From Bacteroidales bacterium (GTDB lineage Bacteria > Bacteroidota > Bacteroidia > Bacteroidales > Tenuifilaceae): a DNA stretch of 39,026 bases. Both the position numbers and the translations under genes were made by a program. The stretch covers positions 1 to 39,026 of the forward strand of contig JAFWUG010000152.1 in NCBI GenBank assembly GCA_017524185.1, written 5' to 3'. The notes below the pieces were generated by a model. The model did not search any database and had not been told where the DNA came from. It was given only the letters and a program-made list of their open reading frames with translations. Below, piece by piece: positions 23,977-37,874 of the stretch (positions within the stretch are counted from its first letter, which is position 1; each line of letters starts with the position of its first letter).

Positions 23977-23984
23977 TATCTTTG
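23977..23984 (+). promoter_or_regulatory. -7 box of metK
   Basis: TATCTTTG is a perfect TAnnTTTG. The start point would be near 23991, about 10 nt before the SAM-II aptamer, giving a leader of about 180 nt. No TTTG at ideal -33 spacing was found. Confidence 0.65.
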
Positions 23985-24000
23985 TTCATCGATTTGGATC

Positions 24001-24048
24001 GTGGACAGATTTGGCTGATTGCAACCACACTAAAAATGCTAAAACAGC
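24001..24048 (+). ncRNA. SAM-II riboswitch aptamer upstream of metK
   Basis: The segment fits the SAM-II pseudoknot. The P1 stem is GTGG (24001-24004) with CCAC (24025-24028). The P1 loop contains the conserved GATTTG and TGATTGCAA blocks. Downstream comes the conserved CTAAAAA...GCTAAAA strand. The P2 pseudoknot pairs loop bases GCTG (24014-24017) with CAGC (24045-24048). The 20-nt spacing inside P1 and the order of conserved blocks match the known metA/metX examples from Alphaproteobacteria and environmental sequences; the class is also known from Bacteroidota. It starts about 10 nt after the predicted transcription start of metK, which makes the ligand of the aptamer. The exact mode of control is not clear (see findings). 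Confidence 0.9.
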
Positions 24049-24172
24049 GTGCAGGCTTGCGCTTGATGCCATTTTTCCACAGCCCATATTCGTATTTTAG
24101 TCCCCATCATGCACAACATGATGTTGGCAATGTTGTGTTGTAAAAAACTGTAAATCAACAAAATAAACGATC

Positions 24173-25429
24173 ATGGGATACTTATTCACTTCAGAAAGCG
24201 TATCGGAGGGCCATCCCGACAAGGTGGCCGACCAGATTTCCGACGCATTGCTCGATGAGTTTCTGCGCCACGACCCCAACTCCAAGGTGGCCTGCGAAAC
24301 GCTTGTAACCACTGGCTTGGTGGTGCTTAGCGGCGAGGTGCGCACCAAGGGCTACATCGACGTGCAGGAGGTGGCGCGGCGCGTTATCAACCGTATTGGC
24401 TACACCAAGCAGGAGTATTGCTTCGATGGCCAGTCGTGCGCCGTAATCTCGAGCATCCACGAGCAGTCGCCCGACATCAACCGTGGCGTGGTGCGCCAGA
24501 GCGAGGACGAGCAGGGTGCTGGCGATCAGGGCATGATGTTTGGCTATGCCTGCCGCGAAACCGAGGAGTACATGCCCCTATCGCTCGCCCTCTCGCACGT
24601 GCTGCTGCTTGAGCTGGCCGCCATCCGCCGCGAGGGTAAGCAGATGACCTACCTGCGCCCCGATGCCAAGTCGCAGGTTACGCTGGAGTACGACGACAAC
24701 CATCAGCCCAAGCGCATCCACACCATTGTGGTGTCAACCCAGCACGACGAGTTCGACACCGACGACGACCGTATGCTATCTGCCATTCGCCGCTATGTGG
24801 AGCAGATACTCATCCCCCGCGTAAAGGCGCGTTTCTCCGAGCGCGTGCAGCAGCTGTTCGACTCCAATATTGTGCTGCACGTGAACCCTACGGGCAAGTT
24901 TGTGATTGGCGGTCCTCACGGCGACACAGGCCTCACCGGTCGCAAAATTATTGTTGATACCTACGGTGGCAAGGGAGCGCACGGTGGTGGCGCATTCTCG
25001 GGCAAAGACTCGTCGAAGGTGGACCGCTCGGCGGCCTACGCTGCCCGCCACATCGCCAAAAACCTGGTGGCCGCTGGTGTGGCCGACGAGGTGCTGGTGC
25101 AGGTGGCCTACGCCATCGGCGTAGCGCAGCCCGTGGGGCTGTATGTGAACACCTACGGCACGGCTCACGTGCAGCTCACCGACGGCCAGATTGCCGAGCG
25201 CGTTCAAAAGCTGTTCGATATGCGTCCAGCGGCTATCGTTAGGCGATTTGGGCTAAAGAACCCCATATTTGAGGCTACCGCATCGTATGGCCACTTTGGC
25301 CGCGACCCGCGTTGCGTTGTGGAGAAGTTCTACGAGAATGGCCACACCGTTGAGCGCGAGGTGGAGCTCTTCGCATGGGAGAAGCTCGACTATGTTGACG
25401 CTGTGCGCAAAGAGTTTGGGATAGCATAA
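24173..25429 (+). CDS. metK: S-adenosylmethionine synthase
   Basis: The 418-residue protein makes S-adenosylmethionine from methionine and ATP. Conserved features are [13 protein letters not shown] at the start with His14, the DQGMMFGYA loop, [20 protein letters not shown], and [22 protein letters not shown] (only part quoted) in the second half. It is longer than the E. coli enzyme (384) but typical of Bacteroidota. A SAM-II riboswitch in its leader suggests feedback control by the product. A strong terminator follows 26 bp after the stop codon, so the gene is monocistronic. Confidence 0.96.
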
Positions 25430-31900: not shown

Positions 31901-31976
31901 TGGTTGTCCTACCAGGGGTCGAACCTGGACTCTTCTGATCCAGAGTCAGACGTGTTGCCAATTACACCATAGGACA
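31901..31976 (-). tRNA. tRNA-Gln (anticodon CTG)
   Basis: The 73-nt cloverleaf (31904-31976) has a 7-bp acceptor stem (TGTCCTA / TAGGACA), D-arm, an anticodon stem TCTGA / TCAGA with loop CTCTGGA giving anticodon CTG, a 5-bp T-stem with TTCGACC loop and discriminator A. CCA is encoded directly after it (31901-31903). It reads CAG codons and lies 83 bp downstream of glnS, on the same strand. Confidence 0.95.
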
Positions 31977-31993
31977 GCGTAATTTTTCGGCTG

Positions 31994-32001
31994 CAAAGAT
32001 A
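31994..32001 (-). promoter_or_regulatory. -7 box of tRNA-Gln
   Basis: The minus strand reads TATCTTTG, a perfect TAnnTTTG, 17 nt upstream of the mature tRNA 5' end. So the tRNA can be made from its own promoter as well as by read-through from glnS. Confidence 0.6.
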
Positions 32002-32059
32002 CAACTTTTTCTTTTCGGTTGTATTGTTAGGTGCAATTTTTTTGCAACATTCTTGTTGT

Positions 32060-33739
<1,680 letters not shown>

Positions 33740-34770: not shown

Positions 34771-36807
34771 CTATCCCACTGTTGAGCCGCTACCCATGGT
34801 TGCGTTGGGCTGTAGCAGGCGTAGTTCGCCGGTGAGGTCTTCGGCCATTAGCACCATGCCGTGCGACTCGATGCCCTTTATTTTTCGCGGTTCGAGGTTG
34901 GCCAGCACAGGCACTTGCTTGCCAATCAGTTCTTCGGGTGTAAAATGTTCGGCAATGCCCGAAACCAGTGTGCGTATATCAATGCCAGTATCTACCTTTA
35001 GTTTGAGCAATTTTTGGGTTTTTGGCACTTGCTCGGCCTCCAGCACGGTGCCAATGCGGATGTCCATGCGGGTGAAGTCGTCGAAACTGATAGCGGGTTT
35101 CTCTGGTGCAGCCTTGGCGGCCAAGCGCTGGTTCTGCTCCTTGATGGTTTGCAGTCTGTCGAGCTGAGCCTGTATGGTGCTGTCGTCAATCTTCTCAAAC
35201 AGCAGCTGGGCAGGACTAAGCGTGTGCCCCTGGGGTAGAATGTTGGCGTTGCCTGCGTTGTCCCAGGGCGTGTTGGGTAGGTTAAGCATTTGGGATATAC
35301 GTGCAGCGGTGAATGGCAGGAAGGGTTCGGTCAGCACTGCTATGTTGGCCGTAATTTGAAGCGCAATGTGCAGTATGGTGCCTACGCGCTGTGGGTCGGT
35401 GGCCTGTAGTTTCCAAGGCTCGGTGTCGGTCAGGTATTTGTTGCCTAAGCGGGCAATGTTCATGGCTTCTTTCAGCGCCTCGCGGAATCGGAAAGCCTCC
35501 ATGTTCTCCTCAATGGCGGCTTTTAGGCGGGGTAGTTCGGCGAGCGTTTGCTGGTCGTAGTCGGTGAGCTGGGCTATGGGTGGCACAATGCCGCCAAAGT
35601 GCTTGTGGGTTAGCACCATGGCGCGGTTCACAAAGTTGCCCAAAATGGCCACCAGTTCGCTGTTGTTGCGGGTTTGGAAGTCTTTCCATGTAAAGTCGTT
35701 GTCTTTGGTTTCGGGCATGTTGGCCGTTAGCACGTAGCGCAGCACGTCCTCTTTGCCGGGGAACTGGTCGAGGTACTCGTGTAGCCACACCGCCCAGTTG
35801 CGCGAGGTGGATATTTTGTCGCCCTCAAGGTTCAGGAATTCGTTGGCCGGCACGTTGTCGGGCAGTATGTAGCCCCCGTGGGCATGGAGCATTGCGGGGA
35901 AAATGATGCAGTGGAACACGATGTTGTCCTTGCCAATGAAGTGGATCAGACGGGTGTCGTCGTCTTTCCAATATTTTTCCCAGTCGGGCGTTAGCTCCTT
36001 GGTGGCCGAGATGTAGCCAATGGGAGCATCGAACCACACGTAGAGCACCTTGCCATCGGCATTGGGCAGCGGCACGGGTACGCCCCAGTTGAGGTCGCGG
36101 CTCACTGCACGGGGCTGTAGCCCCTGATCAAGCCAGCTTTTGCATTGCCCATAAACGTTGGTTTTCCACTCTTTATGCTCGGTCAGTATCCATTTTTCGA
36201 GCATGGGCTGCAGCTGGTCGAGGGGGAGGAACCAGTGCTTGGTGTCGCGCAGCACGGGTGCCGCGCCGCTCAGCGTTGAGCGTGGATTCACTAAGTCGGT
36301 GGCGTTGAGGCTGGTTCCGCAGCGTTCGCATTGGTCGCCGTAGGCGGATTCGTTGCCGCAGTGGGGGCAGGTGCCGGTGATATAGCGGTCGGCCAAGAAT
36401 TGTTCCACCTGCTCGTCGTAGTATTGCTGGCTTGTTTTCTCGATGAATACGCCTTTATCGTGCAGATGCTTGAAGAAATCGGCAGCGGTTTTGTGGTGCG
36501 TTGGGTTCGATGTGCGTGAGTAGATGTCGAACGATATGCCGAATCGGGCAAACGCGTCTTTGATTATGGCGTGATACTTATCCACCACCGTTTGTGGCGA
36601 CACGCCCTCCTGCATGGCCTTTATGGTGATTGGCACACCATGTTCGTCGGAACCGCACACCCACATCACCTCGCGCCCACGGTTGCGCAGGTAGCGCACG
36701 TAGATGTCGGCTGGTATATATACGCCGGCCAGGTGGCCGATATGTACAGGCCCATTGGCATAGGGCAGGGCTGTGGTAATCATGTACCGTTTGAACTCTT
36801 TTGCCAT
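34771..36807 (-). CDS. metG: Methionyl-tRNA synthetase
   Basis: The 678-residue class I synthetase has HIGH at 22-25 ([10 protein letters not shown]), a zinc knuckle with two Cys pairs near 146-165 (CPHCG and CERCG), the KMSKS-equivalent [11 protein letters not shown], and a C-terminal tRNA-binding domain of the Trbp111 type ([20 protein letters not shown], then LLKLKVDTG). It charges tRNA-Met for initiation and elongation. I choose the ATG at 36807 ([12 protein letters not shown]), because the upstream extension of 51 codons is non-conserved and overlaps the promoter. A -7 box lies 28 nt upstream. Confidence 0.96.
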
Positions 36808-36834
36808 CGCATTTATAGGGATTTGTTTGCGCCG

Positions 36835-36842
36835 CAAAATTA
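36835..36842 (-). promoter_or_regulatory. -7 box of metG
   Basis: The minus strand reads TAATTTTG, a perfect TAnnTTTG. The start would be near 36828, about 21 nt before the chosen ATG, which supports that start. Confidence 0.55.
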
Positions 36843-36938
36843 CTAAAAGTGCTGCAATGTTAGCCTTTTTTATGCCCATAACGTAACAAAATGATGCCAA
36901 AATTGCTATATTTATCGTACAAAACGTTGGCTTTGTAT

Positions 36939-37874
36939 ATGAACAGAATAACACCTCCACCTCTTCAACGTGGCGACACCATTGGGCTTGTGGCCCCAGC
37001 GCGTTATGTAACGCAGCAAGAGATGCGGGCGGCTATTCATTTTTTCACCTCTCAGGGGTTCATGCTCAAAACATCGCCCCATTTGTTTTCGAGGCATTTT
37101 CAGATGGGAGGCACCGATATTGAGCGGGCAGCCGATTTTATGGCCATGGTAGAAGATACCGATGTGAAGGCCATTGTGTGCGCTCGGGCAGGATATGGCA
37201 GCGTGCGCATATTGGAGCATATCAATCTGCGTCGCTTGCAGGCAAATCCTAAGTGGATTGTGGGCAATGGCGATATAACGCAGCTGCATAGCATTATCTG
37301 CAATTGGTATGGAGTTGAGGTTTTGCAGGGCATATTGCCCTCCGAACTGCCCGCAGAGCCAGAAGCCAACGAGTCGTGCCAGATGCTCATCAGGGTGCTG
37401 TTGGGCGAAAATCCGCAATATGAGGTGCCAGCGCATTCGCTCAACCGTTTGGGCGAAGCAAGGGGGCAGCTTGTGGGTGGCAATTTGGCCACCCTGTCGA
37501 TGCAGATTGGTACCGATGGCGATGTGGTGCCGCAGGATAAAATTCTGTTCTTGGAGCAGGGGCATTGCCGTCCGTCGGAGGTGGATCGCATGATGATGCA
37601 CCTGAAACGTAGCGGAAAGCTCAAAGCAGTTGCAGGTTTGGTGGTTGGCTCGTTCCACAGCTTCATTGCCGAGGCCGAACCATTTGGGCTGTCGCCCTAC
37701 GAGATTGTACACGAAATTATGCAGGACTACGATGTTCCCATCTGCTTTGGTCTGCCATCGGGAACTGGCAATCGTAATCTTCCGCTTATCATGGGGCGCG
37801 AGGTGCATTTAGACGTAACGCCCACGGGTAGTCGTCTTGCATTTTCGGCCGCTCCCTATAACAGCCTCGTGTAG
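36939..37874 (+). CDS. S66 (LD-carboxypeptidase/MccF) family protein, catalytic residues altered
   Basis: The 311-residue protein has the S66 fold markers: [19 protein letters not shown] at the start, [47 protein letters not shown] and [17 protein letters not shown]. In active members the nucleophile Ser sits in G-x-S-D and the general base His follows the late P-x-G. Here these positions read Gly111 (GNGD) and Thr276 (SGTG); the Glu in FLEQ is kept. So a classical Ser-His-Glu triad is missing. I start at the ATG at 36939, where family-like sequence begins; 36891 would add 16 residues. Active relatives trim tetrapeptides in peptidoglycan recycling or hydrolyse microcin C7. Confidence 0.82.

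Follow-up and report, generated by a model that had tools for sequence, protein, structure and literature searches.

Which riboswitch precedes metK in an uncultured Bacteroidales genome, and how could it pass the SAM signal on to the gene? The window analysed here, that is, the whole stretch of 39,026 nt, comes from a Bacteroidales bacterium of the Tenuifilaceae (GCA_017524185.1, forward strand of contig JAFWUG010000152.1). When it was searched as a whole and on both strands with cmscan, three matches exceeded the threshold, two tRNAs and a single match to RF01726 (SAM-II long loop), which covers the full model from position 1 to 60 and scores 57.5 bits (E 1.3e-8) against a gathering cut-off of 44 bits. 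This upholds the SAM-II identity claimed in a preliminary description of the locus, and every conserved block that it had named in the metK leader was found in its place (Table 1). The RF01726 order is kept, with the P1 stem followed by the loop GAUUUG..UGAUUGCAACC and then the AAAAAUGCUAAA strand, the P2 pairing is backed by covariation, and the element lies on the same strand as metK, in its leader and behind a promoter. The preliminary description had named RF00521 (SAM_alpha) as the covariance model to use; the above-threshold match came with RF01726, and RF00521 matched nowhere in the genome, with control genomes equally silent. We are all but sure that the element is a SAM-II aptamer. 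It occurs once in the 2.5 Mb genome, as does the SAM-II core pattern, no covariance match to SAM-I (RF00162) was obtained anywhere in the genome, and a permissive covariance scan of the metK leader returned nothing credible besides RF01726.

Table 1. Features of the metK leader in the window (positions in window coordinates).
Feature	Position	Strand	Remarks
-7 promoter box TATCTTTG (TAnnTTTG, Bacteroidota)	23977..23984	+	consensus from PMC9723704
SAM-II (long loop) aptamer RF01726	23995..24052	+	57.5 bits, E 1.3e-8
P1 5' strand GTGG	24001..24004	+	pairs with 24025-24028
Loop block GATTTG	24008-24013	+	
P2 pseudoknot 5' strand GCTG	24014..24017	+	pairs with 24045-24048; covariation in relatives
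Loop block TGATTGCAA	24016-24024	+	
P1 3' strand CCAC	24025..24028	+	pairs with 24001-24004
CTAAAAA strand	24030-24036	+	
GCTAAAA strand	24038-24044	+	
P2 pseudoknot 3' strand CAGC	24045..24048	+	pairs with 24014-24017
Candidate anti-aptamer strand AGGCTTGCGCTTGATGCCATTTTTCCACA	24053..24081	+	predicted pairing with aptamer 5' half, 24001-24026
Candidate anti-start strand CCCAT(AT)TCGT	24083..24093	+	predicted pairing with 24167-24177
Extra hairpin CATCATG-CACAA-CATGATG	24105..24123	+	enclosed by anti-start helix
Start-codon region ACGATCATGGG	24167..24177	+	target of candidate anti-start strand
metK, methionine adenosyltransferase, 418 aa	24173..25429	+	TIGR01034, 518.7 bits

The statement that the riboswitch adjoins the gene for SAM synthesis itself also holds, as the open reading frame matches TIGR01034 far above the cut-off of 309 bits. 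The -7 box was likewise recovered upstream; on the basis of its position and of the spacing of -12 to -5 between box and start in Flavobacterium (PMC9723704), transcription probably begins near 23989, which puts about 12 nt between the start and P1, compared with the roughly 10 nt estimated earlier. Elsewhere in the window, on the minus strand, glnS (glutamine-tRNA ligase) is followed after about 80 nt by a tRNA gene with the anticodon CTG (Gln) (31904-33739), and metG (methionine-tRNA ligase; 34771-36960, also minus strand), about 9 kb downstream of metK, is not preceded by a SAM-II match.

RF01726 was found in all 27 family genomes searched, in 50 of 60 relatives, in 197 of the 295 genomes of the order and in 45 of the 296 genomes of a phylum sample. 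By parsing, SAM-II is followed by metK in 204 of 211 fetched loci, and the other seven comprise four parsing failures, one short distance, one below-threshold element (L080) and one metH-like gene (L131); the SAM-II pattern was also present in 54 of 80 named metK loci. A -7 box (TAnnTTTG) is located at most 40 nt upstream of P1 in 179 of the 204 related leaders. The P1 stem occurs as GTGG/CCAC, GAGG/CCTC, ATGG/CCAT or GCGG/CCGC among the relatives, and one pair of P2 covaries in 151 non-redundant relatives (T-A 47 and C-G 44 versus T-G 10 and C-A 9; Fisher 4e-12). SAM-II was first found in 2005, in the Bacteroides group among others, and the sources given at that time already included B. thetaiotaomicron (PMC1273637); the long-loop form RF01726 was assigned to the Bacteroidetes by Weinberg et al. 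in 2010 (PMC2864571), in agreement with the occurrence in Bacteroidota given in the preliminary description. SAM-II upstream of metK is here nothing unusual and has been described before; the riboswitch extends a known feedback arrangement to one more uncultured Bacteroidales genome.

Some relatives depart from this layout. In one Bacteroidales genome (G402), a second SAM-II copy precedes the metH-like gene of L131 (1-1059 in C269), which carries an LDGAMGTMIQ motif. The leader of this gene is similar to that of the SAM-II metK locus L130 in the same-genus genome G504, which suggests that the whole switch was duplicated. A SAM-II variant of one family (L059 in G197, near 1501-1581) contains an extra hairpin, GTTTCTTTTTAGGAAAC, inserted in the P1 loop after TTTG and before GATTGC, whereas the usual long-loop insertion lies elsewhere. 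In flavobacterial loci (L045, L047, L050, L051, L053-L058 and L060), the P1 3' strand is separated from the A-rich strand by long hairpin insertions, which are probably the long loop that gives the family its name.

Inspection of the leaders revealed that the sequence after the aptamer resembles the reverse complement of the aptamer 5' half; in some flavobacteria, for instance, GAGGAAAAAT...GATTGC lies opposite GCAATTATTTTTCCTC. We measured this pairing as duplex energy, against dinucleotide shuffles and against swapped partners, where each aptamer was combined with the downstream strands of other species and row and column effects were removed. Across 79 loci, the aptamer 5' half and the downstream strand paired with a mean z of -2.07 relative to dinucleotide shuffles, and at 46 of these loci at most 10 of 200 shuffles were as good. 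In 50 non-redundant loci, native partners reached -16.0 kcal/mol versus -13.5 kcal/mol for swapped ones, an advantage of about 2.4 kcal/mol that none of 20000 permutations attained, and again none of 20000 when the permutation was confined to loci of the same P1 type. The signal was replicated in 100 loci that were fetched later and do not resemble those examined first (z -9.3, with none of 20000 permutations reaching it), and it appeared once more in 52 loci of named records, which are partly from the same species (z -6.8). The parser lost the first two P1 bases in some loci, an error that weakens both the native and the swapped scores, and sequence relatedness was controlled indirectly, by non-redundancy, by permutation within P1 groups and by the flat control segments described below. 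We also looked for a simple covariation of single bases that would link GATTGC or GCTTGC, the A/C variant of the aptamer, with CAAT or CAAG downstream, and it proved weak (Fisher 0.03-0.05).

Co-variation of the same downstream region extends to the start of metK. In the new set of 100 loci, the platform, that is, the anti strand with its 3' neighbours, paired with the metK start region with an observed value of -1.35 versus -0.34 +/- 0.16 for the composition control (z -6.8, 0/20000). The signal peaked at -10 to +10 (z -7.0). The anti strand alone gave a weaker signal (z -2.6 in the new set, -3.9 in all loci). Compared with shuffles, the anti-start pairing is weaker than the anti-aptamer pairing, with a mean z of -0.52, and partly reflects composition. 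Pairing of the start with the aptamer 5' half and with the aptamer 3' part was flat, as was that with the segment before the anti strand, and 20 metK leaders without SAM-II had no such signal (z +0.7). Direct pairing between aptamer and start region was looked for and not found. At least three anti-start pairs fall inside the anti-aptamer strand in 73% of loci, so that the two pairings compete for the same bases. One genus (L022 and relatives) illustrates the overlap, as CCCATAG lies opposite CTATGGG and its CCAT also lies opposite the GTGG of P1. In equilibrium predictions without pseudoknot or SAM, as all structures reported here are, the unpaired fraction at -6 to +8 is 0.500 in the free leader and drops to 0.426 when the aptamer is occupied (Wilcoxon 1.5e-10) and to 0.413 when it is shuffled (5e-16). 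Across the set, these folds support the strand release proposed below.

Our main reading, to which we assign a probability of roughly 0.6, is that the element is a SAM-II (long-loop) OFF switch of metK, with a translational strand-release mechanism proposed for the group. Ligand binding, the OFF direction and translational control are what we infer, and they are not equally firm. Binding of SAM to the pseudoknot would lead to less of the SAM-making enzyme; based on the known class and the logic of the pathway, SAM should lower metK expression, and an OFF switch of metK is therefore highly probable. For action at the level of translation we see about even odds. Three points favour this level: the leaders rarely contain intrinsic terminators, co-variation links the platform to the start region, and initiation in Bacteroidetes does without Shine-Dalgarno sequences and is tuned by structure around the start codon (PMC6847099). 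As a tentative model, which we hold at slightly below even odds and which is read from sequence comparison, the SAM-II leaders of Bacteroidota metK genes might operate by a three-way strand exchange, in which the downstream strand sits either on the aptamer 5' half or on the start region. In the absence of SAM, the aptamer would hold the C/U-rich downstream strand by its 5' half, leaving the start of metK open. With SAM, the aptamer would close and release the strand, which could then pair with about -10 to +10 of metK and hinder initiation.

For the window itself, we infer the switch mechanism from the relatives. In its minimum-energy fold, the aptamer pairs with the downstream strand through GUGGA:UCCAC, UGGC:GCCA and GCAACC:GGCUUGC, and a second helix covers the start codon, formed by CCCAU(AU)UCGU (24083-24093) and ACGA(UC)AUGGG (24167-24177); these two helices do not overlap. 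The anti-aptamer helix (-19.4 kcal/mol) was equalled by 55 of 200 shuffles and the anti-start helix (-12.8 kcal/mol, seventh of 148 loci) by 263 of 1000, and neither is significant alone. Start accessibility came out at 0.365 in each of the two modelled states, so that folding predicts no switch in the window. An overlapping competition between GGCTG (24013-24017) and CAGCC (24080-24084), modelled at -8.7 kcal/mol, is possible. The leader of a same-genus genome (G001) differs in sequence and has the strongest anti-start helix of all 148 loci (-15.0 kcal/mol); its anti-aptamer pairing is not significant (z +0.39), and its predicted start accessibility falls from 0.358 to 0.274.

These observations on the genus bring up the idea of a decayed or constitutive element, in which the aptamer was kept and the platform no longer switches. 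Such decay would fit the unchanged accessibility predicted in the window and the fact that anti-aptamer pairing is weak in the two members of the genus; however, none of the conserved aptamer blocks is damaged (57.5 bits), the promoter box is retained as well and selection on an idle aptamer is hard to explain, and we consider it very unlikely. A chance likeness to SAM-II is so improbable as to be negligible, given the E-value of 1.3e-8, the position on metK that is conserved in the family and the covariation of P1 and P2.

The remaining alternatives place control at the level of transcription. Intrinsic terminators of -6 kcal/mol or better were predicted in the stretch after the aptamer in only 3 of 50 leaders, and we rejected a conserved intrinsic terminator as the general mechanism on this ground. 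The anti-aptamer hairpin followed by a U-run does not serve either, as four T in a row occur within 12 nt in only 12 of 49 leaders and such a terminator would turn SAM into an activator of metK. An intrinsic terminator could nonetheless act in this species, because the window does contain a hairpin, GCGT(G)CAGGC-TTGC-GCTTGATGC (24047-24069), followed by CATTTTT, and other SAM-II switches, mainly in Proteobacteria, are often located upstream of terminators (PMC1273637; PMC2258182). We regard this as improbable, since 115 of 200 shuffles fold as well as the hairpin, since such terminators are not conserved in relatives, and since the 5' side of the hairpin shares two bases with the P2 3' strand, an overlap that would set SAM against the terminator, which is the wrong sense for feedback. 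Rho-dependent termination is a serious rival, which we nevertheless think rather unlikely. Here, SAM would free a C-rich, G-poor and untranslated strand for Rho loading, which would be hidden in the anti-aptamer helix when SAM is missing. The 60 nt after the aptamer consist of 22.7% C and 9.7% G in 50 loci, a composition that, like the near absence of intrinsic terminators, speaks for Rho, and the anti-aptamer co-variation fits this explanation equally well. On the other hand, the excess of C over G is in part simply the complement of the G/A-rich aptamer strand, and the co-variation with the start-codon region is left unexplained by Rho.

The added value of the present analysis lies in the conserved, co-varying expression platform, as riboswitch action without Shine-Dalgarno sequences has been little studied. 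The three-way exchange, if true, would give a phylum that lacks Shine-Dalgarno sequences a translational mode of riboswitch control, and it predicts specific base pairs that are open to compensatory mutation tests in cultured Bacteroidota. No published account of a Bacteroidota SAM-II expression platform was found in the main texts of the open-access literature. The closest known system is RF01726 itself (PMC2864571), which shares the covariance model and the phylum and lies on metK in the relatives examined; its model consensus has P1 as GaGG/CCuC, whereas the window has GTGG/CCAC, and the main text of that paper describes no expression platform. The SAM-II/metA element RF00521 (Corbino et al. 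2005, PMC1273637) has the pseudoknot architecture and the ligand class in common with the present element, but many of its members are associated with intrinsic terminators, which are nearly absent in the Bacteroidota leaders studied here. A predicted translational action, in which the initiation site is made inaccessible, has also been described for the SAM-II riboswitch of S. meliloti metA (PMC9373788). There, P2 covers the Shine-Dalgarno sequence, whereas here the start codon is about 120 nt away and we propose that it would be covered by a released third strand.
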